A stretch of DNA of 64,000 nt from positions 48,147,131-48,211,130 of the forward strand of contig OX359247.1 of the NCBI GenBank assembly GCA_947179485.1, written 5' to 3'. Position numbers and translations under genes: made by a program. Positions 8,386 to 50,694 of this stretch are shown here, piece by piece. Position 1 is the stretch's first letter, and each line of letters opens with the position of its first letter. This stretch comes from Allacma fusca. Its lineage: Eukaryota; Arthropoda; Collembola; Symphypleona; Sminthuridae. The notes beneath the pieces are model-generated. The model was not told where the DNA came from. It saw only the letters and a program-made list of their open reading frames with translations, and ran no database searches.

Positions 8386-8809
8386 TTTTTTTTTCTCTCT
8401 ACCACAATATCTCATTTTAAAAGTCTCATTTTTAAGTTTTTTAGAATTTGTGTCGTCAAGCTGAATTTCTCCAACCTTGCTCGCTATCAATAAGTTTATG
8501 AGTCATGCTCAGAGGTCTAAACTGAAGGACCACAAATGATCATCACACCATGTTCTGATAAAAAATTTATATTTGCATATTTTTAGATTTTCAAAAACTA
8601 TGATTTTACAAACAAAATATGTCTTTGCTCCACTTTCTTAACCTCTGTATGAAACATTTTCGGCTAAGGTATATTATTCTATACTTATTAATTAACAAGA
8701 GATATATTGTTCAAAAATTGCAAATTTTAAAAGCAAAATGATCTAGATGGCCTAGATACAATTTGTAATTTATAATAAACGCAATATAGGAATAAATTAT
8801 TTTTTGAAA
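8386..8809. other. Unannotated AT-rich spacer
   Basis: Nothing supportable is seen: no open frame, no repeat ends. Confidence 0.4.
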
Positions 8810-9660
8810 CTGCACTTCAGTTCCATTTGAGTTCAAACTTGAAGGTACACTCACGTTCAAACTGAACTTTCAAGTTATACTTCAGCTACACTTGAGTTCA
8901 AACTTAAATTCCAAGGCACACTGAAGGTCAAATCGGGATTTCTAGTTGGACAGAATAACACTCGAATACAAATTCGAATTTCAAGTTACCCTTTAGTTAA
9001 ACTTGAGTTCAAACACGAATTTCAAGCTGCACTTGAGTAACACTTGAGTCCAAACTCATAATTCATGTCCCACTTGAGTAACACTTGAGGTCAAACTCCG
9101 TTTCATGTCCCGTTAGAGTTTCAGGTTACACTCATATTCTAACTTCAGGCAGCAATTGAGTTCAAACTCGAAGTAAATGTCACACTTGAATTCAAGCTCG
9201 AGTTCCCAGTAACACGGAAGTTCGAATTCGAATTTCAAGTTGGACAGAGTTACACTCGAGTACTAATTCGAATTTCAAGTTGGACAGAGTTACACTCGAG
9301 TACTAATTCGAATTTCAAGTTACACTTGAGTTCAAACTTGAATTTCAAGTTACACTTGAGTTCAAACACGAATTTTGAGTTACACATACGTTCAAAGTCG
9401 AAATTCAAGTTACACCTTACTTTCATCTTAAACTAACTTGAATGTGATGTAACAATCGAGTGTAAACTCGAATTCTAAGTCAAATTTGAACTGGGCTTTC
9501 AAGCAGCACTTGAGCTACGTTTGAGTTTAAACTCAAACTTCAAATTGCACTCGACTTTCCGGCTATGCTGAAGTTCAAAATCAGTTTCATATTACGTCTT
9601 GAGAGTGAACTCAAATTACAATTTTGAACTGTACACTGTTAAATTTGCATTCGAGTTTTT
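8810..9660. repeat. Degenerate 30-40 bp minisatellite array
   Basis: About 850 bp are built from variants of one unit, 'gaatttcaagttacac' followed by 'ttgagttcaaact'. Around 9305-9420 the period is 30 bp. At about 9224-9305 a 40-bp version carrying 'ttggacagagttacactcgag' is repeated almost perfectly twice. Unit variants contain both TTCAAG/CTTGAA and GAGTTC/GAACTC words, so the array is also internally palindromic. No protein frame is kept across it. Confidence 0.8.
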
Positions 9661-12135: not shown

Positions 12136-14084
12136 TTTTCCATCAATTTAGATGGAGTTATGAAATGTTCACCTTGAAATGAACTCTTTTGTTGATTCTT
12201 GATTCATTCTTGGCACAGCAACCTTTCCAGGGTCTGATATCTGATATTCTGCAACGTTAAAATGTTCTTTTATTGTTGATTTGTATTTAACTAATGGGCC
12301 TTCAGGATGATTACTTGCTTTTAATTTTAAAATAACAATCAATTCAACGCCTCTATTTCCCAAAAATGAGTTACTATGTCGGCGTCGGCATTACTGTATA
12401 ACTTACAAGTATTAATTGGAGGAATGAATGGAGTCACTTAACACTTAAGATCCAAAGTTCCATAGAGCTTGTACGAGTATAGTAATGAGGGCTGCAGTAG
12501 GAAAAAGTGCAATCCTTGCAGCCTGCCAACTTCAAATTAGTCAGCTCGTGGTATTCGGGAAACTGTGATCGGAAATTAAAGTTGTGCAAATTTTCATGAA
12601 AATTGTAAAAGAATATTGATAAAAAGTTAATTTGTTGTGCATATTTTGTTACGAAACATTGTAGCATAGAAATTAAGCATATTATACAACGTTTCAGCAC
12701 TAGCATATTTTGTACTAGTACATTTAGTACTCACAATCAGGGGCTCAACCAAAGATATTTTACCGGGGGGTACAAAATGGCCGTCTCACTTGCAGACTGA
12801 AGTAAAATATTTTATTGCATTATAGCAATATTTTGTTGCATGGTGTGAAAAAAATTAACCTAACAACAAAAGCAAGCTAAAAATAAAATTAGCGTTTGTA
12901 ATTCCTCACAAACAAAAAAGCAGTAATTATTATTGTTAAAAAAGGTCAGAAGCTTTTTTCAGGCCCACTTTGTCTAGTATTTTGGTCTAGCCAAATAACA
13001 TTTAGCAGTAGTTCCGCCTTATTTCAACCAATGTTGAAGTCAGCTAGTTTAGAATTCGCTTCAATGTCAATATAGAAAAACTGCGTACTGACCAGGTTTT
13101 TATAAATAAAAATAGAATTATTAATTACAGAGGGTAATACAAACGGAAGCGGATTTTTCAACACCTCTAATATGTATTTAAAATGTGACGCTAGGTTATG
13201 AAAAATATATATGAAATAAGATTGTTTCATTCCAACATTTTCTTACATTTGCGTTTGGCAACAATATGTTCGACTTGAGCGGATAAAAACCCATCTGAAC
13301 ACAGCAAACAGTCCATACAAATTCCCTACTTTGATTCACGTACTAGAAGCTTGATGCCGGATAAATTGGCCTAGGGAAATTATAATAGTTTTAAGCTTTA
13401 AATTACAATTTTCAACATTCAGGATTAAAATATTACACATAGAATCGGAAATACCATAATAATTTTAACAAAACAAATCACCGTTGTAACATTTTCAGAA
13501 GAGCAAAAATATTTTATACACAAAAAATTGATACTTATAATTGTAATCATACCGCGATTGCCTAATCACTTATTACTCAGGGAAGAGCTTATGCATTTTT
13601 GTCTCTTACCTTTTGATTATTGAAAAATCTCAAAGACATCGAATTATTTATTTTTTACGACTTAATTAGGGTTACTTGTAATCTAAGCTCTGTGTCCGCG
13701 AAGCTTTAGAAATTTTAAGTGTGCAGAGTTGAATTAACAATTTTGGATTATTCTGTTGGTTCTATCTATTCTGTAGGTTACTATGTGTGGAAAACAAATC
13801 ATGTAAATTCTAATTCAGTATTGCATGTAATGTATCATAGAATACAGATGTTCGTGTTATCTTTGATGTTTTTATCATTATAAATTTTGATTTACAGCTT
13901 AAATTATGATGGTAGTCGAACTTTTAAAATAATAAACTGAAATAAACTGATTTTTGTTCTACGATAGCACCTACCTGACAATTTTCATGTAGTATGGGAG
14001 TTAAATTTGTCATTTTAAATTTTTTTTCTGGGGCGGGGGGTCGAGGCTCGTACCCCTCTGGGGGCCAAGTAGAGATACGTAGTC
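12136..14084. other. Intergenic stretch without identifiable genes
   Basis: Short open frames here have no homology and no splice partners. Two G/C-homopolymer patches (about 12765-12775 and 14033-14065) stand out from the AT-rich background and may be remnants of an element's ends. The inverted match between them is too weak to call. Confidence 0.4.
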
Positions 14085-14453
14085 TAATGGTCGGAACGAT
14101 TCAATTCAATTCACAAGCTGAACTAAATTCAAACCAACGTTTTGATTCAGTTAAGTAAAAACCAATTCAATTCAGATCAGTTTATAATTTTGAATTGAAT
14201 TGAACTGAACTAAATCGAAAACCATGGGTTTCCCTAGACATTTAAATAATACGTTTTTCTAGAAACGACGAGTTTTTACAGATTGAACAACGGAAGGACG
14301 CCAAAGCGAAAAACTCGTTAGTTGAAGGGGAGTAAAGAAAAGAGTTTGTAAACGGTTGATTTTGAATTCAAATGTACTGGGCAGAGGGCAGATTGAATTG
14401 AACTGAACTGAGCCGAAAATTTTAAATTCAGAATTGAATTGGTCTAAGCACTA
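14085..14453. mobile_element. Old hAT-like MITE built of AATTC/GAACTGAA words
   Basis: The left end TAATGGTCGGAAC and the reverse complement of the right end, TAGTGCTTAGACC, align over 23 bp with 17 matches, and both run into ATTCAATTC. The interior of each end is a ladder of AATTCAATTC / GAATTGAATTGAACTGAACT words. The flanking octamers do not match, so the copy is old or its boundary has drifted. It resembles the element at 39589-40476, which shares the 'CGGAAC.(A)TTCA.TTC' end and has an intact target duplication. Confidence 0.55.
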
Positions 14454-14692
14454 CGGTGTGCTCCCCGTGGTTTTATCACTGTTTAGTAATTTACAGAAGT
14501 AGTAAATGTGCGAAACTGTATTTTTCGGTAGTTGCTAATTCACATCCCAGAAACCCATGCATCAATCAAGCATTCAACAACCCAACGTCCCACATCTTCA
14601 TTGTCAGAGGGAACTATGAGACGGCATTCCCTGCTGATGAATGCAAGTGAGCAAATACAATTCAGGAATGGCAGCCTAACGGGATATCTCGC

Positions 14693-17322: not shown

Positions 17323-20300
17323 ATGGAGACTGTAAAGAGGTACACAATAATTATCTTTCATGCGTGACATTTGTGATCTTTCTTTCCTTTACAATCTATG
17401 CATAATTCAAAATCATTCGGTGCATACATCTCATAATTTCAACTATGCAAACACTTAAAAATTTAATTCATCTGGTGCAAATGAACTAACCATCACGTTT
17501 ATTCGGTGTATACACTTACAACCACCGATGTAAAATGCAGAACTAAATGAAACTTGGTGGAATTGTAGACACTACTTAATAGTGTTCATACAAACCACAA
17601 ACTTCATGCCATCTCCTCTTGGTTCCGGCAGTAGGACATCTGAAAGTTTTTTTTTTGAAAGTTTGACACTTTACTCACTTAAATTTTTGCTGTAAAATCC
17701 CATAAGAAAAATTAACTTTGGGTTTGTTTTTTTTCAAAGCGGACAGTGACGAAAGTCACTTTTTTAACAATATTTTCGTATAAGTACTTCAATGCAGAGC
17801 GATGTGAACAAAATTGTACACCAAATTTTTTTTTGTAAAAACGAGTTTGAAGGTCAAAAAACCGAAAAAACCCGAAAACTAAAGTAATTTTTTACACCCA
17901 TAATTTAATATTCAAAGACAAACTGCCTATCTTAAATTTTTTGTCGCAAAGGAAGGTCACCTCACGATTTTTTTCAGGATCAAGGCATTAATATTTCGGT
18001 TTTTTCAGAAAAATTACAATGTAAATTTGTTCACATTCAAGATTTTTTTTCACTGCGGGCCCACTCTAATGTGATCATTTTTAGAAGCTTAAACGACGAG
18101 ACTGCATTGGTACCACAATTTAAAATTTAAAAATGTGTCACATTAGAGTGGGCCCGTCTTCAAAATCGAGAAAAACCGAAACGGGTAATTCATATACATA
18201 TACACATAAGGGGCCATGCAAGTGTATTTATACGTACACACGCAGGATTGTCTTGTGGAGGTGAGAGGCGCGCTGTCGTGCAGCGTAACGAGTATGCAGC
18301 CCTTACATGTACACAAACAACCGCATGACGCAGCTCCGCGTTCGTTCTTCCGTCACACAAAATAGTCCCACTTATTTCTTGTAATATTTTTTATATGATT
18401 GGTCCTACACCAATCAAAATTGGTGTGAGGGTTGACCACGATATTTGAAATATATGTATGTACATTACATGTACTTTATATTAAAAAAATATTCAACCTT
18501 GCACTGTCCGCTTTGAAAAAAACAAACCCCTTTAGCAACTCGAGCAAAATCCAAACCAATGTTGAGACATATGTAGCACCATACATATATATGTGCAATC
18601 AGCAGCACGTGCTCTGGAGATGTAAAATCCCTGCAATAAGATCTCCCGTAAGAATCCTTAATCCCCGTAAGAAAGAAAAACGTCGTTTTTCAGTCCTGGA
18701 GTGATGAAGATTTTTAGGTCACCGGAGAACATTGAAGGTAGTAAAGGTGGATCATAATCGCTCGTGCTGCTTCTGATTGCACATATTTCACATATAGTTA
18801 ATTATGTATAGTGCTATGTCTTGACATTGGTTTGGATTTTGCTCGAGTTGCTCAAATTGATTTCTCTTGATTTAATTGATTGATTTAACTGCAAAAATTC
18901 AAGTCAGTAAGGATCTCCCTATCAAACTTTCAGATGTCCTACTGTCGGAACCAAGAGGAGATGGCATGAAGTTTGTGGTTTGTATGAACATTATTAGTAG
19001 TGTCTACAATTCCACCAAGTTTCATTTAGTTCTCATTTTACAACGGAAGACCTTTCTTGTTAGTGCACACGAACCGCTGTGTTTAACTTAAAATACGGAT
19101 TTACGTATATTGCCTAGCCAAACAAAAATTATGGCAGGTTTGAATTTACATAATGTCCGGTTTTCTTTAACCTTTAACTTGTCGCTCATAATGGTGAGCG
19201 AAGGTGTGGGTCTACCTTTTAATAATAAGTTTTAAAAAGTATCGTGTGGAAGATATTGTCTTCAGATGGTATATGTCTGTCACGGTAATATAGAGGTCAT
19301 ACTTTTAGCTGCCACAAATGTTGTCAAAGATCTCGTCTTCTAATGAATAATAAATTCTATAAATAATATAATTGACATGGTGATATGTAGATTAAGCATG
19401 TAGGCCTCATAAATATCGTCGAAGATCTCGTCTTCTTGATGGGATGTTTGACATGGTGATGTATAGATCATGAAATTAGATGGCACTAATATAGTCGAAG
19501 ATCTCGTCTTCTTGATGGGATGTTTGACAAGGTGATGTATACATCATGAAATTAGATGGCACTAATATGGTCGAAGATCTCGTCTTGTCATGGGATGTTT
19601 GACATGGTGATGTATAGATCATGAAATTAGATGGCACTAATATGGTCGAAGATCTCGTCTTGTCATGGGATGTTTGACATGGTGATGTATAGATCATGAA
19701 ATTAGATGGCACTAATATGGTCGAAGATCTCGTCTTGTGATGGGATGTTTGACATGGTGATGTATAGATCATGAAATTAGATGGCACTAATATGGTCGAA
19801 GATCTCGTCTTGTGATGGGATGTTTGACATGGTAATACGTAGAACATACTTTGAACTGCCACAGATGTCGGACAACTCGTCGTCAATTGGGGTGTTTGAC
19901 ATTGTCATATGTAAATCATAATTGTAGCACGCACAAATGTTAAGATCATGCTTGCGCATATTTCAGTTGGATGCGTATACATTTTCTGGTTTTAGGTTAA
20001 GTACCAATTTAGAACTTAAAGGAACAGTCATAATTTTGGAGTGTTCTACTGTCCAAGTGATGCAAACGAATGTAGTGTCTAGATATTCCAGCAGCGTTGA
20101 CGGAACAAAATTATGTACGTTCTTAAAAATTTCGTAGGCCATCTGGTTTTCGTTCACGGAAATTTGACGTTGGAAATTTCACAGGGAATGCATTCGACAA
20201 AGTTTCACATCATTTAACTTCACAAGGTTGATAAACACTTATTATGTTTTCTATTGCATTTCCGCTAGACTCGACAAAATTAAAGACCTATAGCAGCTTC

Positions 20301-39580: not shown

Positions 39581-40484
39581 ATCACAGCTAGTACTCGGAA
39601 CAGTTCAGTTCGATTCAAAATTTGCAGTTCAGTTCAGTTTGAGCAGTGAACTGAAACGAAAATTCGGTTTCGGTTCAGTTCAAGCAAAAACAGTTCAGTT
39701 CAGTTCAGTTTTACCCGATGAACTGAACTGAATCGGTGAATCAAACAATTCAGTCGCAGTGTTTGGTAAACAATAATAATTGCGGATGTACACACGTAGA
39801 GCTCCGAATTTAGTCATCCGAGTCAATCCCCGAAAAAACTGATTTCTTTTTGCTCTTAACGTGTTCCTAATCGCATTAGCCATAGCAATCAGTGCACTCG
39901 ATAATGTACAAATGATATGTTCTCGATGATGGTAATGTACTCTGGATTGGCCCTGTTTCAGAATCAACGTTTAGTAATCCACTGCTTCTTTTAGCATTAC
40001 AGATTTGGGCGAATTCAGTATCTGTGTTTTCCTTAGGATTCGTATAAATTTTAATTTTTAATTCCGTAATCACACCAGAATTTTAAGTATAGTTGTTGAA
40101 GTTTTAATGAAAATAGTGCGAAACGCAACTTCTTTAGCCACATGCTTGGTCCGGCAACAGCAATGTCCCATAGAATTATTAAACGATTTTTTAAAAATAA
40201 TAAAGTAATAAATAAACTTCATTATTTATTAAATAACTATACATGGGAATGGCATATAAGAATGTAAGTTGGTGGCGACATTTCCAGCAAGGAGCCCGTT
40301 TGCAAACCGTTTGAACTGCAGTTTGCATTATATGGTTCAGTTCGATTCAAATACTGAATCGAACTGTTCAGTTCAGTTCAACTACTGAACTGAACTCTAT
40401 TTATAGTGAATCAAACTGAACTGAACTGAACCGAATCGGAATTTTTTGGTTTTGAACTGAACTGGTCCGAGTACTAATCACAGC
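39581..40484. mobile_element. hAT-type MITE 'B', CAGTTC-rich, perfect 8-bp target duplication
   Basis: ATCACAGC at 39581-39588 and 40477-40484 is a perfect 8-bp direct repeat. The element (39589-40476, 888 bp) starts TAGTACTCGGAACAGTTCAG. The reverse complement of its right end reads TAGTACTCGGACCAGTTCAG. TAG-starting inverted repeats with 8-bp duplications are diagnostic of hAT transposons. About 130 bp inside each end consists of CAGTT/GAACT words in both orientations, so each end can fold on itself. No transposase frame remains. Confidence 0.88.
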
Positions 40485-41000
40485 TCTAGCCAGAAAGACT
40501 CAGCAACTTCTGTGTTACTGAAGTCATATACGTCCACGTATATCTATGTACATGGGTACTAACTACGGTTTATGTTGATTGAAAATGCCTCAAGTTTTTA
40601 CCCACCCAGATAAAAATGTCCGCCCATATGACCAATTTTCGGGCACATGGGCAGCCGCCTTTGAAAAATGCCCTAGTTTTTAACATTTTGGGTACTAAAC
40701 AAATGCAAGGCACTTTTGACTTTTTTCCTATAAGATATTAACAGCCATCCCTAACTGCAATCTAAGCACTAAATACAAAACGCAGTCTACAAAACGAATT
40801 TCAAAAATTTTTTGAGTCGCTTTAAGATGTTTGAAACGTGATAGTCCAGTTTAGTTTTTAGATTTTCGGTACTGAATCATTATAGTCTCGAAACTTCAGT
40901 TAACATTGGTGAAATATTTAATTTTATTCTGTTCGTCGTATTCTTTTGATAGTTTGTTCTGAAAAAATATTTACGGATTCGAAGGGTTCTTTTTTTACAC

Positions 41001-41578
41001 TTCGAGGCAGAGATGTTCAAATGATTTTCCCTTCCTTCAATCCTTCGAACGCAAAAAAATAGATTCATTTCCTTCCTTCAGACCTCTTCAGATTGAAGGC
41101 TAGAAAATAAAATTCCTTCCTTCACCCTTCCTTCGAAGTTGTTTTGTTGAGATCCTTCCTTAAGCCTTCAGTAATAATCAATATTTTTCCCTCACCAAAT
41201 TCCGTCTTCCGTTATATTTTATTGTCATATATGAGACAACAAAGTCAAGATACAAAAAATTACAGTAACCGCCAGAAACCGTCTTTCCATCGTATTATAT
41301 GTATCGTGGTACGTTACATGTGAATGAAAGCGCGTATTGATAGCACTAAAGTTAGTTGTCATGAAAGGTACATTCGGCGCAAATGGTGATTGGGAAGCAC
41401 CCTTCCGTCAACTTCAATTTTTTCATCAATGCGCTGAAGCCTTACTTGTTCCTTCGTAATTTTTTTCACCCTTCCTTCCCTTCCCTTCCCTTCATTTCTT
41501 TCGAAACAAGCGCATCCTTCCCTGAAGGAAGCCTTCTTTAAAGGGTACCCATCGACGGGTGAACATCTCTGTTCGAGG
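41001..41578. mobile_element. hAT-type MITE 'D', CCTTC-rich
   Basis: CAGAGATGTTCA at 41008 and its inverted copy ending at 41571 bound a 564-bp element. The flanking direct repeat is TTCGAGG (41001-41007 and 41572-41578). The base following the right copy is T, so an original TTCGAGGT octamer with one base lost on the left is likely. CAGNG termini and an 8-bp duplication fit hAT. Both ends are packed with CCTTC/CCTTCCTTC words, mostly in the same orientation on both sides. Confidence 0.75.
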
Positions 41579-42387
41579 TATACTTCCGACATTTGATATA
41601 AATAATCAATATTGATACATACCCACGGATAAAACAAGAAAATTCCATAATATTTCTGTACTTTTACAATTAAACCTTGCAATGCTTAATTACTAGCTCG
41701 TATGATTCGGTTACTGTGTAATACGTTATCTTTATATAGAGTTACTTTGTATACTATACAGATAAACTACTGGACATTATTCCCAGACCCCAGACAAATT
41801 GCATCGTATGAAAATCCTTTGACGTTTAATCGTGACTGTCGTAATTAGTTGTATCACACTGTTCTTTTAACCTTGTTACAACTAAACGCAGGCAGAATTC
41901 CTAATCAAGTATTTTTATTGCCCGAATGTGTCCAAAACGTCGAAATTGCCTTTAACACGAAAAAAACCTTGACCAAAATGCCTTGGCACAAACTATATCA
42001 GGGCGTTTTGAGAAGGCCTTTTCAAATCGTCATACCTATGCTCGCTATTAGTAACTGAGTAAAGTTTTAGAAACATCTTTGGGACTCCTTGTGAGAGTTA
42101 AACAAGATTTCCCTAAACATTTTGCTGACTAATTCAAAGAAATTTTGCTGACAGCGAGAAGGAAAAATTGGCACGTACATACTTGCTAATTACAAGGATA
42201 CAGTAATAAGGGAATAATTATTAAATTATTCAATCAAGATGAGAAGCTCTTTTTGGTCCGAGATTTCACGTTTATGAGTTTATTTGTTTTAGTTTTGTTT
42301 AAATAATTTGTTCGTACCAATGAACAAACATGAGGACTAGTTTGCATCATCAGCATCCACCAAGAGAAAGCAAATATAGAGTTAGCA

Positions 42388-43580
42388 CTTATTAGTAGGC
42401 TTGGGATTTTGCGAAAAATGCGAAATTCTAAAAACGATTAGTTACGGTACTCCCATGGGGGAGAAACGTAACCCCAGATGTCAGTAGAATCCAAAAATGA
42501 AAAAATAAATTGCGAAATTTGCGAAAAATGCAAAATTTGCGAAATGGGAAGGTTAAGTGCGAAATATTAAATCGCATTACAAAATCCTGAATCTTGTAAA
42601 ATATTTTACATAGAGCAGTAATATTTTGAAATTTTTATAATTAAATTCGGAGGTATGTCTATTCAACGAACAACTGACACTCATGATGTCGAAACGTGCC
42701 CCGTCCTTTCGAGTTTGCATTACTTCACATACTTAAATCCTATGATTTATCGCATTGCTTTTACTCAATAATTTTCGTGGAGCCAAATTGTAATGCAACT
42801 TTAATACTTTAAATAACGTTTCAAATTTAAGTATGAAATTCTGCCAGCTTGCAGTAAATAGTTGAACAATAAAAGTAATTAAGAGAAATGAAAATACAAA
42901 CAGATTAAAAAATACAATTTCACAGCTTTAAAAAGTTTGCAGCAGTTTCCGGAAAGTGGACTGATAAATTGTCGCTTTATCTCAATAAAAAACACCCAAC
43001 AAATAAACTCTGGGAAGACGCTCAAATTCTGGATTCTTGGGGCATTTAATTGTCGCTTTCAAAAGTTTTGATCAGGCCAATTCCATTAGAAGATTTGGTT
43101 CAATACCGTACACTGAGTAAAATGGAGAATTTTAGTCGGCGGAAATAGACGTTATGGAATTTTGTCTGAATTTTTCTCGAGACGGAGTTGGTACTAAAAG
43201 TAATTTCCGTACCCAGTAGTAGCGCTCCATTTGAGACAAGCTTTTCTTATTTAAAAAATCTTCTTGCTCCCCAGCGCATAAAACTTACCTAAGAAAATGT
43301 TGACTTTCATATGCGAGTGGTAATTCACGATTCAACAGTTCACCCAGACAATTCGGATGACAACAATGATTGAGTAATTACTACAATTGCAGCGATTCGG
43401 TGTAACGGAATTTTCTATAATATTTAAGGTACTTCTTTTAGACTGCCATTCAATAAAAACTAAAAGCTGCGAAAATTGCGAAATGATCTGCAAATTTTTG
43501 CAAAATTTGCGAAAAATAAATTTTAATTTGCGAAATTTTAACGCAAAATTTAGCGAAATATTCCCAAGCCTACTTATTAG
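42388..43580. mobile_element. hAT element 'E' with transposase relic, perfect 8-bp target duplication
   Basis: CTTATTAG at 42388-42395 and 43573-43580 is a perfect 8-bp direct repeat around a 1177-bp element whose ends are TAGGCTTGGGA and its inverted copy TCCCAAGCCTA. Both subterminal regions are ladders of GCGAAAATTTGCGAAA-like words. The interior retains a decayed reading frame with a hAT dimerisation motif (see the pseudogene entry), so this copy derives from a coding element by internal loss rather than being a pure MITE. Confidence 0.9.
42938..43291 (+). pseudogene. Decayed hAT transposase fragment
   Basis: At 43202-43291 one frame reads VISVPSSSAPFETSFSYL followed by KNLLAPQRIKLT and a stop. 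This matches the C-terminal hAT dimerisation domain, whose core is a (V/I)P.SSAP.ER.FS pattern followed by a conserved (N/R).L.P/S.R...L run. Upstream, stretches such as FAAVSGKWTDKLSLYL lie in nearby frames but are broken by stop codons and frame changes. The usual Glu-Arg pair after SSAP is Glu-Thr here. Only the last part of the gene is present and it cannot encode an active enzyme. Confidence 0.75.
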
Positions 43581-43798
43581 TCACGAAAACGTTGCTGCAT
43601 AATTCGAATGTGTAATTTAAAGCAGAACTTCGACAAATCAGAATTATGACATACTGAAAAAGATACATTTATTTGCAGTAAACATTTTGAGTTTATCTCT
43701 TCCTCAGTAAAATGATAAAGATGTTCTGATATTAAACATTGTTGAATCCTTTGTTTGGGTACGGTTATGTTATGTTCTCACTTGATGCATTAAAGGTG

Positions 43799-44645
43799 TC
43801 CACCTATCCTACGTGTAGGCGTATTTGTAGGGTGCAAGAAATTTTTTGAAGAGGTTTGTAGGCAAAATAGGGTGCAGGAATATACGCTAATACCTAGCCT
43901 ACAAACAAATTAGGCTTTGCCATTGTAGAACTATAGGAATATACATATACATATATAGGTTACTGAAGCTAGCCATGTTCATTTATTGGCATTTAGGACT
44001 GGTAAAATTAAAGAACAACTTTCCAAACTGCATGTGTTAAGGCGCACATCAGGTGTGACAAGTTCATACGGTTTAGCATTGATATGCGCTGGAAACCTCA
44101 TCATTTTGAGTTCTAAATATTTGCTAAAGTGGAAACTCAACCAGTTGAGTGGATATTCGAGTTTAATTTCAAATTTAAAAAGGGATTTACTATGAGATAA
44201 TGTTGTCAACCAATTAATGCATTCATAACTTGCCTTATTTCGCTGATTATGGTAAACTTTTCGTATAATATTTAGTTTGTAAATTCGTAAGTGCTACAAG
44301 CCTTTTAACCAACATTGTAAAACTTGGGCACAGTTTCCGGCGCAAACCAAGGTGAGAACGGCAAACTGTTCTGCTCTTAGGGTCTTTGGTCAAGGTAACT
44401 AAACTCAAACTACAGTTCATTCCGATCCCATACACCGGAAACTTGAGGCAGGGTTTCTAATTATTGGAGAACCAAAGAATGCGTTTTTTTATTAAGTAGC
44501 CTGTGGATGTAGAAAAGTAGAAAGAAAAGTATGAGGAATGTAAAAAGGGTGTAGAATAAATTGAGCTATTTCGCCAAAAATCGTAGGCTTATAACTTGCA
44601 CATAGGCTCTCCTTAAAGGAAGGATGTAGGGTAGGCTGATCACTT
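43799..44645. mobile_element. Possible TGTAGG-rich inverted-repeat element
   Basis: The left end 'ggtgtccacctatcctacgtg' resembles the reverse complement of the right end, 'agtgatcagcctaccctac', over about 22 bp with one gap. The interior ends repeat TGTAGG / CCTACA and 'gggtgca' words. No convincing target duplication was found, so the boundaries are approximate. The design recalls the neighbouring hAT-type elements. Confidence 0.4.
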
Positions 44646-46576
44646 CGGTCATTAGAAAGCAGGTACATTTACAGACTCGGTCCAAATTGTGGAAGGATTT
44701 GGGCTATAGACTGAGTCCTTTGGGCACCTTTGTGATGCAAGCTTTTGTCCAGTAGCCAACACATCTGGTACTGTGTACACTGCTAATTGTAAGTCTAACA
44801 AGATTGAAGTGTTGAGTGTTGGCAGATGTTTATATTGCATATTTAACATCCCAGTCACACATTTTATGGTATATATATTTTGCATGCAGATTCTTACATA
44901 TAACGTGCAGTTTTGACCGCCCCAAGTCCTGTATACTATTAACGTAAAAATCGTTACAGCGCGTAAAAAATTGCCGTCCCCTGAGCATACATACGTTATG
45001 TTAGGGTTTGACTGTATTAGTAAGGTCACAGCTTGTAGGATTCTTCTACAAGCTGTGGTTTCGTGTCAGTCACCATTAGTTCAAACCTGTTGGTCATAAA
45101 TGTCAGTCTGTTTTTTCTAAAACGGCAACATATTGTTCAATAAATTGAGAATTCATTTGCTCAGAAATTGTGAAAAAGGGATAGCATCTAATGTAGAATT
45201 TGGACGAAAGGAATTATATGATAAATAAGAATGGGAATCTGTTGGCTTTGTATAAACGGTTGTTTCAACTGTATAAGCTAAAGGATTAGGTAATGTTAAA
45301 ACAACAAGAATTATTATGATTTAATGGTTGGGTGTATTATAGTAAATGATTTAATAAATGAATGTAATCTTGTAAACACGAGAATAACTTTCGCAAATCA
45401 TTAATTTGTCTTACGTCCAAATCACGGCTAGAACTAAAGAATGATTTGTTGAATTTTGCTTCAAGTTAAGTCATAAAAAGCCATGCGACTACATCTTAGT
45501 CCCCATTGGAAACTGGAACTTCTTCCACCTGTTACCTAAGTATGAGCTGAATTCAAGGTCGGCTTACTATACATTTTGTTAAAAATCAGATTATATAGTT
45601 TGAATAGTCGAGTTCTGAATAGTTGTGTAGGGTTTGGGTAATAAGTGTTGTTGCGTGGACTGTTGATAAACCAACGCAGATATCTGGCCCGGCAGTAGGG
45701 ACAACGTACTTCTTATCATTTCACGGGTAACGTGAGTTTAGTAATCAATACACCGAGAGCCCATGACGACTCCAATACATTCAAAGTATCAATGTAAACT
45801 GTCTACAATAATGATTATATACTCAGTCAGTTTCAATACAATCAATGTTAAATAATGGTGTCAAAAGAATTAAACATCTGATTCTGAATAAAAGAGCATA
45901 ATGCCAGCATTAGAAGTAGGGCTGGTGAAAGCGATGTTGCGAACGAAACAAACCCTGAATACGACAAGGTAAATAAGCTTAGCATTGTCCATACCATTAA
46001 CACATTACAAGACTCTGTCGAGGGAAGACTGACAAGTACACTAATGGTTGCATAAATGCTATTGCTGTTGAACCGTTTTGTCGAACAGCGTATAGGTATT
46101 TGTCCTACACCCAGACATCACAAAGTTACTCCACGGATTGATCACAAAAATGCTTAAGAGAATTTCAAAAGATGGAGCGATGGAAATAGTACTTGTTTTT
46201 CGAATGACTTGTGTAGTTGCAAGTCATAACTCGAATCAGACTCAATCTCAGGCCCAAAGTGGAAATAAATACTATAAATCTACAATAAAATATTCATCCC
46301 ACGAAGGCAAGTCCACGTGTGAGCAAAGCACCCAAGTCACTAAGTCAGGGAATACATAACTCTTGAAAAGTGTACGCTCCTACAGAATCTTCTTCTAGAT
46401 CTATGCAACGACGACGATTCTTTCCTACACTCTACTTCTGTAGGGGTTCCAGACTTCTGCCATCATCAAGCACCCCAAAACCTGACATCCAACACTCGTA
46501 CATTAATTGTCCATAGTCTGATCGCGAATTAAGAGTAGAAACACAATTACAAACATTGATTTCAATAGAAATGAAA
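44646..46576. other. Spacer upstream of RPS23 3' end
   Basis: Contains a perfect 12-bp-stem hairpin at 45027-45057 and otherwise AT-rich sequence with short, unsupported open frames. Confidence 0.4.
45027..45057. repeat. Perfect 12-bp inverted repeat (hairpin)
   Basis: CACAGCTTGTAG and CTACAAGCTGTG are separated by 7 nt (GATTCTT). It is too short for a typical microRNA precursor and not next to a recognised gene end. It may be the terminus of a decayed element. Confidence 0.6.
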
Positions 46577-46582
46577 TTTATT
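46577..46582 (-). terminator. Poly(A) signal of RPS23
   Basis: AATAAA on the minus strand starting about 20 nt after the RPS23 stop codon, giving the very short 3'UTR usual for ribosomal protein mRNAs. Confidence 0.75.
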
Positions 46583-46602
46583 CATTGTTAAGAGATAACA
46601 AT

Positions 46603-47581
<979 letters not shown>

Positions 47582-47595
47582 TTCGGCTTTTAAAT

Positions 47596-48416
47596 CTGTT
47601 AAAAAATTCCAAAATTAATCTTCAAAAAGTGTACAATTGCACCCAGGATATTTCCCAATCAATATACTCACAATATAATTAAAAATTTGATTAAATCTCA
47701 CATTAATTTCAACTTCTATACCGACAAGGTATTTACACCGACTGGCAGACTTCCACTGGTCTAAAAGTAATGGCTGAATGTACGGAAGATTTGAGAGTAC
47801 GGTGCATGAGGGCTGAGGAACTGTCTGCTTTCAGCAGCATGGGTGCAGCAGCACTGTAGCCTCCAGATAGTGTATGTGTTGAGTGCCGGAATTTGTTTAC
47901 CACGTGCTCGTTAGGGAGCAGGAGAGTTGCTTTAGTCAATGTTGTGCCTGGGAATGGAAAGCATCGTCAACAACTTGACAATTCCAGACGTGGGAAGATT
48001 CAAAACAGTTTGTATTTAGGCTTCGCCGTGCATACATTTATTAGTTTAAAATACTAAATTATACTGTATATCCATGGATTTGCGTCTATATTTACATAAG
48101 TAAATAGTTGTTTTAATAGTTAATCGACGACGGCCAAAAATACCACAACAACAAGAAAAGAAGCAATTAAATTAAAGAGCGGCCTTTTTAGCGTTCGCTC
48201 GAAGTTTTCAGAGTTGGACTGTTGGACGGGACACGGTTGATCGTTGCTCCTGGGACAACATTTAAGTAATATTAAAAATTGGAGGACAAGAACTTGTCCA
48301 TGTGAATATTTTACAGTGACTAGAATCGATAAATATTAAGGTTATCATAAATAAACCCATCGGTGTTCAAGTGTGCTTAATTGGGAATTTTGAGTGGAGT
48401 AATAACTGACTTGGAA
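47596..48416. promoter_or_regulatory. Divergent promoter region of RPS23 (-) and DPY30 (+)
   Basis: The two start codons face away from each other across about 830 bp that contain no other gene. The region includes a more GC-rich segment (about 47745-47950) with CACGTG at 47900-47905. A pyrimidine tract on the minus strand near 47954 (CTTTCC) could be a TOP-type start for RPS23. Strand composition flips across this region (see findings). Exact start sites cannot be set from sequence. Confidence 0.5.
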
Positions 48417-50694
48417 ATGACTGACAAAGGTAATTTGTGGTGATTGGTGAGGGTATTTGTTTATTGGTTGCGTGGAGATTCTTTATGGGGAAATAATTTA
48501 TTGTTTACAGTTAATTATTATTTTGTACACAGTGGAACCTGGTCCAAACCCTTTGGGAGAGAACGACAAGTCGAAACCTAACTGGGATAGTTCTATGAAA
48601 TCCGGTGCGGAGCCAATGGAAGTCCCTGTGAAAGAGAATATAGATCCGACAGAATTCCCTGGAGAAGAAGGTCCATCACAAGGGGCTGGCGATGGGAAAG
48701 TAAAAGCTGGAGGGAACGTGGCGGAGGGAATGGGAACATCATTATCGTGTCAAGTACAGGTGTGTAAAGGGTGACTGGGCTTTTGATTGTGGAATTTGAC
48801 CACTGGGGATTTGATTATTATGAAAGGTACCGGTAGTTGATGGTGAACTTGCGGGTGGTTAAGTTGTTTGTAACTTTAGGTTAGAAGGTAGTGGGGTAGA
48901 AGGTAGGGAAAGTTATTTTAAGTTCTGTTGGGACATTTTTATGATCAGTTCGAGCTTTTGAACATGTCAGGTGACATTTAGTTTTATGCGGATGTGTGTA
49001 TCCTTGGGGTTATATTTGTTGGAAAGACTAACTGATAGAAGTATCTTTGTTGTCACATTTGATTGTTTAGCGAGGGTGTGACATTGTATTCACCCGGGAC
49101 TTGGAACTTTATCTATTAATTACTCTTGGGGATCGGGGTAGTTAAATGAGCAAAGTATTTTATCTTATCATTTGCTTGGGATTTAGTCTGACTATATAGA
49201 ATATTCTGCTGGAGTTTCCGAAGGTTCTCCTAATAAACATTAAATGCTTGCAAATAGAGCTTCCAATGTGTTCAACATTTTTGTTCCGTACGAAATTCCG
49301 TTCCGTTTCGAAACCTACAAATAATATTGTTCCCGGTTCCGTTCCGGCTGTCGGGACATCGGAACATTTGAACTGACACCGTTCGGAACAAAGGAGTAAA
49401 GTATTATTTCCGTTACAGGTTGTGTTCCGTTCCGTATTATGCTAGTTTTTCCGTTCCGAACCCGTTCCGTTCCGAAATATCCCGGAATTTTTCACAACAT
49501 ATACATAAAACGCGTGTACAAATTACTGAAAACTTAATATACATGATATACTTTTAATAGATTGGATGCTAGGGAATGCTATTATTTAATTATATAAAAT
49601 AATATTTAATAATAATTAGGCCACATAAAAAGAACTACTGTGCAGTATTATAAAATTATTATTAATTATTTTTTAGCAATAAATATTTGTAGCGTGTGGA
49701 CTTCAATGGCCTAACAGTGTTAATTTCCTGCAAGCTTGCTTCATTGCTGCTAATAATTTCGATTTCAGAATTTTCATTTCAAGAAAAATCGCCCATGCCC
49801 ATGTTTATTAAACAAAATTAGTTATTCTGTTGATTTTCATGGAAAACGATACTCGCATTACATATAAGCATTTGCGTAAATTAAATCTAACTGTGTTCAT
49901 CCAATTTCGTTATTTTGGCAAAAAACTGCTTACAAGCCAGAGCGATAAGAAATGTGTTTCCATTCTAGTTGAACGATGGCGCGACACTTCAGAAATTGTA
50001 CCGGGATCGGTTCGGAACGGAACAGAACAATTCCGCTTTCCGGTGAAATAAATTATATGGGACATTTTTCGTACCGATGCTCTGAACCGTCCCGGTCCCG
50101 ATATTATCGGTACAAGTGCTCATGTTCCGGTTTTGTCCCGATTCAATGACGGAATCAAAAAGAATGTTCCGAAATTGTTCCGTTCCGTTTCCGAACACGG
50201 AACTTCGGGATTTCGGAAACCCGAAGGAAGCTCTACTTGCAAAACATCGTGAATCGTGACATTTGTGGTTCTTGTGTAGGATATGTGTAGGATAAACCTT
50301 CCCTTCGTAAAATACTTTTTGAGTTGTATTATTGCTGGTATTATTAGGAACGGCTCAAAAGAAATGGTTTATTGTTGACTTTTGGAATCTCTTATGCTTA
50401 AAACACAATGTGAACAGTGTGGTTAATAAGTAGTAATAATAAGTAACACTAAATTGATAATTATGAACATTTTTTATTTTGTTCTAGAAAATCGTGGCCA
50501 AGGAGTTGGACCCACCGACTACAAAAAAGGCTCGAGTTGATTTACAAAGCATGCCAACTCGCCAGTATTTGGACCAGACGGTTGTTCCTATTCTTCTTCA
50601 GGGTTTGGCTGCAGTAAGCAAAGAAAGACCTCCGGAACCTATTGAATATCTTGCGGCCTTCCTTCTGAAGAATAAAAACAAGTTTGATGTTTAG
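48417..50694 (+). CDS. DPY30: DPY30 homologue, subunit of SET1/MLL (COMPASS) methyltransferase complexes
   Basis: Three exons, 48417-48429, 48533-48759 and 50488-50694, give 447 nt and 148 aa. The C-terminal 50 residues carry the Dpy-30 motif: [20 protein letters not shown], then [20 protein letters not shown] and LLKNKNKF. This forms the helical dimerisation/docking domain that binds the ASH2L tail in H3K4 methyltransferase complexes. Residues 5-95 are a Pro/Gly/Glu-rich, probably disordered extension, longer than in human DPY30 (99 aa total). The start ATG directly precedes intron 1 (MTDK|VEPG). Intron 2 (1728 bp) contains a complete hAT-type element. AATAAA is at 51046-51051. Confidence 0.94.
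49247..50243. mobile_element. hAT-type MITE 'A' in DPY30 intron 2, perfect 8-bp target duplication
   Basis: CTTGCAAA at 49247-49254 and 50236-50243 is a perfect 8-bp direct repeat. The 981-bp element (49255-50235) starts TAGAGCTTCC and ends with its exact inverse GGAAGCTCTA. Both ends contain many GTTCCG / CGGAAC words, several as GTTCCGTTCCG. There is no transposase frame. It is on neither splice site, so the host intron should still be removed normally. Confidence 0.9.

Follow-up and report, generated by a model that had tools for sequence, protein, structure and literature searches.

A stretch of 64,000 nucleotides of the genome of the collembolan Allacma fusca (contig OX359247.1, positions 48,147,131 to 48,211,130; hereafter the window) holds four hAT elements, named B, D, E and A, which have TAG/CAG tips and target site duplications (TSDs) of 7-8 bp, and in each of which both ends are filled with a ladder of a short word particular to the family. 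They are hAT miniature inverted-repeat transposable elements (MITEs) of a known kind, present in a dense and diverse form. The same ladders are found in copies of B, D and E elsewhere in the genome (and in two copies of A), as well as in longer copies of B, D and E which hold hAT transposase sequence. Taken jointly, these findings are very probably best explained by the ladders being arrays of binding sites for the N-terminal BED finger of the transposase.

The tips and TSDs of B, D, E and A were taken directly from the sequence. The features are listed below by their positions in the window (TIR, terminal inverted repeat):

39589-40476: element B, a hAT MITE of 888 bp; TIR TAGTACTCGG (left tip; right tip CCGAGTACTA), ladder CAGTT/GTTCA, TSD ATCACAGC on both sides
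39589-39790, + strand: left ladder of B; 15 bp from the tip to the first GTTCA start
40277-40476, - strand: right ladder of B; first GTTCA start 15 bp from the tip, reading inward
41008-41571: element D, a hAT MITE of 564 bp; TIR CAGAGATGTTC (left tip; right tip GAACATCTCTG), ladder CCTTC/CTTCA, TSD TTCGAGG (7 bp)
42396-43572: element E, an apparently internally deleted hAT element of 1177 bp; TIR TAGGCTTGGGA (left tip; right tip TCCCAAGCCTA), ladder GCGAAA, TSD CTTATTAG
43224-43370, + strand: remnant of the coding region for the hAT C-terminal dimerisation domain in E, recognised by eye against the L076 frame
49255-50235: element A, a hAT MITE of 981 bp; TIR TAGAGCTTCC (left tip; right tip GGAAGCTCTA), ladder GTTCCG/TTCCG, TSD CTTGCAAA
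14085-14453: an old, hAT-like copy; tips TAATGGTCGG and AGCACTA, ladder AATTC/ATTCA, no matching target duplication around it

The tips and duplications agree with an earlier, sequence-only reading of the window, which had called B, D, E and A hAT-type elements. All four have a short TIR starting with YAG. The same reading regarded the termini of the elements as unrelated, but they are not all so: the tips of the old copy resemble those of a further family, F (locus L022, 864-1396). The domain remnant in E contains an in-frame stop at 43290, and its 22-aa piece alone gave no Pfam match; PF05699 (the hAT dimerisation domain) matches of a genome profile search fall within four other E matches.

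Words were counted as non-overlapping 5-mers in the terminal 150+150 bp and in the interior of each element, with 300 dinucleotide shuffles as a control (floor p = 0.003). CAGTT was found 23 times at the ends of B against 3 times in its 588 interior bp, GCGAA 10 times against once in 877 bp in E, CTTCA 8 times against twice in 264 bp in D, and TTCCG 15 times against 12 times in 681 bp in A, the ladder of which extends further inward; in the old copy (130-bp ends, with the left end set at 14080) there were 13 ATTCA against none in 114 interior bp. The shuffle test gave p = 0.003 for B, E, A and the old copy, and p = 0.013 (5-mers) or 0.003 (6-mers) for D. For the second control, 2000 pairs of 150-bp segments were drawn at random elsewhere in the window (top count at the 99th percentile 5, maximum 10), and the top 6-mer counts of B (14), D (6), E (10), A (9) and the old copy (8) were reached by 0, 18, 1, 1 and 2 of these pairs, respectively. 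D is the weakest by k-mers, yet 20 of its copies each contain the word CCTTC 18-23 times within their terminal 200+200 bp. Both controls bear out one architecture with an own word near both ends of each element, including the AATTC ladder which had been ascribed to the old copy.

B, D, E and A are all multi-copy. The search of the assembly (392,743,791 bases in 91 contigs), in which the best 40 candidates per element were scored, gave 584 first-look candidates for B (scored matches longer than 600 bp clustered near 97-100% and near 87-90%), 601 for D (scored matches at 89-92% besides itself), 120 for E (scored matches longer than 1100 bp at 84-92% besides itself) and 578 for A. The best 40 for A, itself included, were all at 98-100% identity, which indicates a young family and recent spread. 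The end patterns, counted forward plus reverse, matched 95+99 times (194) for B, 84+88 (172) for D, 63+53 (116) for E and 388+387 (775) for A, and their reversed-pattern controls gave 0 or 1 matches each. Exact 8-bp duplications surround 21 of 30 B loci, 23 of 30 D loci and 4 of 5 E loci, and an 8-bp duplication was also found around two A copies; the duplication of the D family is thus 8 bp long, that of the window copy 7 bp. These loci are not all separate insertions, since L049 and L050 share flanks. As separate observations, D-type ends at C8:8852980, 8892730 and 8932497 lie ~39.76 kb apart, suggesting a tandem segmental repeat, and a cluster of B copies was found at C8:63324125-63372044, where L022 and L027 have adjoining F elements.

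The number of words was then compared between copies, in the terminal 200+200 bp of those passing a filter for tips and length (19 of 30 for B, 20 of 30 for D and 5 of 5 for E). It was 21-24 per copy in B (mean 22.8, sd 0.7), 18-23 in D (mean 21.0, sd 1.4) and 9-14 in E (mean 11.8, sd 1.7), with 0-1 words in the interiors; the two A copies counted (that of the window and one in L006) had 20 and 21 words, and 6 interior words each. Such near-constancy argues that the ladders are not private microsatellites, and slippage arrays private to single copies, which the sequence-only reading had named as the outcome that would undo its proposal, are ruled out by it.

A genome profile search with PF05699 (860 first-look candidates, the best 150 scored), together with nearby end patterns, revealed long relatives of these elements. 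The long B copy (L084, C5:45206102-45209129, 3028 bp) has CCCCTCAC on both sides and a PF05699 match; a putative BED finger, recognised by eye, is split by an intron, and since the frames of this copy are interrupted, it is not claimed to be active. Further long-spaced pairs of B ends, known from end positions alone, lie at C1:53404206-53411668, C5:54002352-54006739, C8:40317240-40320219 and C8:14067860-14076963. The long D copy (L086, C8:55033231-55037436, 4206 bp) is flanked on either side by CTTCCGCT, contains a PF05699 match and carries a single mismatch in one of its tips. For E, L078 (2996 bp) and L079 (2693 bp) have both tips exact, PF05699 places inside and duplications with 1 and 2 mismatches, respectively; L076 has the right tip and a 264-aa frame bearing PF05699, and L077 one exact tip and a 197-aa frame. 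The presence of PF05699 was confirmed with Pfam in L084, L086 and L076. Of the autonomous partners envisaged earlier, long relatives are thus at hand for B, D and E, and none for A among the first 100 of its 775 end matches listed; pairs of A ends wider than the unit were listed, up to 7.1 kb (e.g., C1:23321188-23328322, known from positions alone).

In blastn comparisons, positions 1-241 and 247-564 of D match the two ends of the long D copy (241 bp and 318 bp), positions 1-649 and 653-888 of B those of the long B copy, and positions 1-524 and 566-1177 of E those of L079; the window B, D and E look like internal-deletion derivatives of longer copies. The words of the long copies are concentrated in their terminal 200+200 bp, with 15 against 7 in 2628 interior bp in B, 22 against 7 in 3806 bp in D, and 11 against 2 in 2293 bp and 10 against 0 in 2596 bp in the long E copies. 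It is also worth mentioning that another hAT MITE is nested in the long E copy L076 (528-1464), with the tip CAGAGCTATGCA, the word AAATAC and the duplication CCAAAATG/CCAAAGTG, which has one mismatch.

Ladders are not limited to the window families. A scan for tips with exact 8-bp duplications, made with no ladder criterion over 362,069 bases of collected sequence, yielded 62 pairs, and none in each of ten shuffled sets. Grouping by tips resulted in 17 groups, several of which are the query families or their variants, and ladders were present at p <= 0.01 in 15 of them; the two others by the k-mer test were L014 792-1103 and L070. Nine further TIR groups (F, G, H, I, J, K, M, N and L014) came from the DNA flanking B and D copies, which had been taken without regard to ladders, and ladders were present in eight of these groups at p = 0.005. 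They do not represent nine independent events, because F is similar to B, N is short and related to L071, and every group but F was seen in a single copy. Within the sample seen, the word-ladder architecture is real and general. Two nested arrangements were also noted among these groups: a B copy lies within element G, ~150 bp from the G tip (L012 1350-3049), and a D copy within element K (L038 784-2531).

Among ten transposase loci examined, tips were located in four at first (L068, L069, L070 and L071) and, over a longer stretch, in a fifth, L073 (hereafter T73); L066, L067, L072, L074 and L075 showed no convincing tips in the stretches examined. The duplications are exact in L068, L070 and L071, and that of L069 has one mismatch. 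Ladders were found at p 0.005 in L068 (CGGATA), L069 (AATAAC) and L071 (ATAACG). L070 gave p 0.29-0.76 by the k-mer test, but TTGTTG, which falls outside the words admitted by the k-mer filter, is restricted to its ends. T73 has GTTCA ladders and L067 and L075 have ATCCG ladders without defined tips. Exceptions to the YAG start are L068, starting with TAA, and T73 (with flanks, C10:33016543-33020994), which starts with CAT, having the tip CATACTTGCAG instead of YAG; two copies of T73, the second judged by eye, lie between exact 8-bp duplications. Separately, L066 (1345-3042) contains a 566-aa stop-to-stop frame with a hAT domain, and neither a ladder nor convincing tips were seen within the 4.4 kb examined; it could be a domesticated transposase gene.

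Some comparisons of transposases with words favour the BED-finger reading. The transposases of L069 and L071 are 51% identical and their common word is CGTTA, and those of L068 and L075 are 58% identical, with the common word ATCCG; the BED helix halves, extracted with a regular expression, are alike within each pair and unlike between the pairs. A Pfam BED domain was recognised in T73, the element with the GTTCA ladder, and in L070, and elsewhere (the B partner and others) BED fingers were identified by eye or by regular expression only. At the ends of each family, a tip of ~11-14 bp leads into a ladder of 5-6 bp words that spans about 200 bp, and we infer that the word is the site recognised by the N-terminal BED zinc finger of the family's own transposase. 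An oligomeric transposase may dock on the array with several of its BED fingers, pair the two ends and cut at the tips, and MITEs retaining the array would stay mobile. As a BED finger diverges, the array would be rewritten, giving each family its own word. Judged from the sequences, binding is the most likely function of the words, and the earlier proposal of expanded binding-site arrays is supported as the best reading of them.

Several results weigh against this mechanism. The BED-like stretch of the long D copy gave no Pfam match, and in E no BED finger was found. The hAT domain of B is 45-52% identical to the ATCCG transposases and 41% identical to T73, yet it is with T73 that B has its word in common, so that the word does not simply track transposase kinship. 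L074, which is 57% identical to L070, had no TTGTTG ladder in the stretch examined, where its ends were not located. L014 792-1103 has tips and a duplication and no significant ladder. Of the nine flank groups, F is represented by two copies and the others by a single one, which limits the family-wide status of their ladders, and N is close to L071. The words were picked after the sequences had been seen. Moreover, a test for helical phasing of the words at 10-11 bp showed none at 36 ends, and such phasing was rejected. Divergence between word and non-word positions also belongs here: in comparisons of the window elements with long copies, divergence at words was below that elsewhere in 12 of 12 tallies, which overlap, and the p value depended on the mask (B 0.0005-0.34, D 6.6e-5 to 0.18, E 0.027-0.24). 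With union masks, p was 0.34, 0.18, 0.24 and 0.06, and significance hinges on which copy defines the words; no claim of purifying selection on the words is made. When families were aligned after masking of the words, identity at words was above the rest in only 2 of 12 comparisons, while 25 of 103 words fell at matching places and ~6 were expected. In unmasked alignments identity was higher at words in most clearly alignable pairs, a result which we discount because the aligner is drawn by repeated words.

It is improbable that the ladders are functionless, microsatellite-like products of slippage, present in the founder copy and spread passively within each family. This can be weighed on the anatomy of 36 ends of 18 elements, a descriptive sample, as related families are included and the words were chosen post hoc. 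Same-strand word spacings peak at 5-6, 12, near 31, 36 and 41 bp, and tandem arrays were called with periods of 5 and 31 in B, 5 in D and 9-18 in E, which speaks for slippage; local duplication has probably helped to build the arrays. However, most elements carry words of both orientations, separated by dissimilar spacers, and the words are present at either end; the first word starts at bp 10-18 at 26 of the 36 ends and before bp 10 at none. The words cover 0.2-0.37 of the bases in bp 1-120 and less than 0.02 past bp 260 (short elements contribute bases up to their middle only). Furthermore, ladders were present in eight of nine TIR groups found by tips alone, and word number is stable between copies.

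Highly unlikely, in turn, is the possibility that the words are sites for host factors acting in chromatin, replication, methylation or silencing, and not transposase sites. Maize nuclear proteins bind the subterminal regions of Ac, according to a title cited in PMC3260210, and the GTTC/GAAC core seen in 8 of 19 elements leaves some room for a common factor. A host factor would, however, favour one shared word, whereas the words differ between families of one genome, and in two pairs related transposases have the same word. That the ladders work by the shape of the DNA (its flexibility or hairpins), whatever the exact word, is scarcely credible: the lack of helical phasing means that the data do not require a strict protein lattice, but the base composition of the words varies widely (GGGAAC, AAATAC, ATAACG) and exact words recur beyond dinucleotide-shuffled controls.

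Binding of the transposase to the words would fit what is described for other hAT elements. Ac/Ds of maize has an 11-bp TIR and subterminal regions of ~200 bp in which the hexamer AAACGG is repeated and bound cooperatively by the transposase (PMC3260210). The short TIR, the repeated subterminal word and the internal-deletion derivatives are alike; the word is another one and belongs to one family, whereas many families with different words occur here in one genome. Herves of Anopheles gambiae carries at both ends the motif CGATTCAT, with the core GATTC/ATTCA (at bp 15-22 of the R end), and a weaker variant, CGTTCAT (PMC3143072), which come very close to the ATTCA/GTTCA words found in the old copy, B, F and T73; binding was shown for Herves, while the words reported here are known from sequence alone. 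Hermes of the house fly has 17 and 14 BED sites AAG(T/C) in its two ends, the first pair at bp 11-27 of LE, and most hAT transposons are said in the same paper to have such sets of repeats near the TIRs (PMC10368747). The register of the Hermes and Herves sites resembles the start of the first word at bp 10-18; the Hermes site is a degenerate 4-bp one, in contrast to the 5-6 bp, partly direct tandem words of A. fusca. In Kat1 of Kluyveromyces lactis, a domesticated yeast enzyme, AATTCA/TGAATT occurs six times between the TIRs, with a role suggested by its authors (PMC4763223); this hexamer is the top 6-mer of the old copy, an identity which may be due to chance. Finally, for hAT-encoded CGG-binding proteins, which have diverse specificities, four measured motifs match the subterminal regions of their own elements strongly (PMC8097297), whereas the specificities proposed here are predicted.

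Subterminal motifs that differ between hAT elements are therefore already in print (Ac, Herves, Hermes and, as a suggestion, Kat1), and the sequence-only reading, which knew of no description of such word-by-family expansion, is not supported on this point as it was put; what is new is that many families have diversified side by side in a single genome. In searches of the open-licence literature, aimed mostly at hAT subterminal repeats, no description of one genome holding many families that differ in their words was found among titles and opening abstract lines, which is weak evidence of absence.

A broader proposal is that well over ten hAT families of this genome have co-diversified BED specificity and word in the manner of a lock and key, many from a GTTC-like ancestor; we regard it as possible, though rather doubtful. 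The GTTC/GAAC core mentioned above (found by inspection, with B, F and T73 counted via the GTTCA form) may reflect drift from a common word, so the earlier suggestion that the words diverged family by family applies in that families have their own words, but not all of these are independent. To our knowledge, the DNA preference of the BED finger has been measured for few hAT transposases. If the broader proposal is true, a BED recognition code could be read from the genome by matching every transposase to the end word of its own element, and a change of word would insulate families from cross-mobilisation. The families of this genome show a probable target word in many repeats, on elements for which a transposase of their own can be traced. 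If binding holds, they supply many BED-word pairs for learning the code, orphan MITEs could be matched to enzymes, and it could be studied what keeps families from mobilising one another; if binding fails, the MITEs of this stretch are ordinary ones.

Several minor observations concern the window itself. The 401-bp stretch around the old copy (14070-14470) exists in five identical copies (100%), the others being at C10:47921092, C10:48071024, C11:9154 and C11:148181; three are on C10 within ~240 kb, and a recent segmental duplication around the window is probable. The ladder-like stretch at 8800-9650, rich in CTTGAGTTCAAACTCGAATTTC, was considered as a hAT element and rejected, as the tip scan found none there; it is a degenerate tandem array of 30-41 bp units. 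A 75-bp unit is repeated 5.6 times at 97% at 19412-19833. At 43800-44640 there is a possible further element, with GTAGG/CCTAC words on both sides seen by eye. On the - strand at 46600-47585 lies a split gene, the first exon of which, read by eye, presumably encodes ribosomal protein S23.

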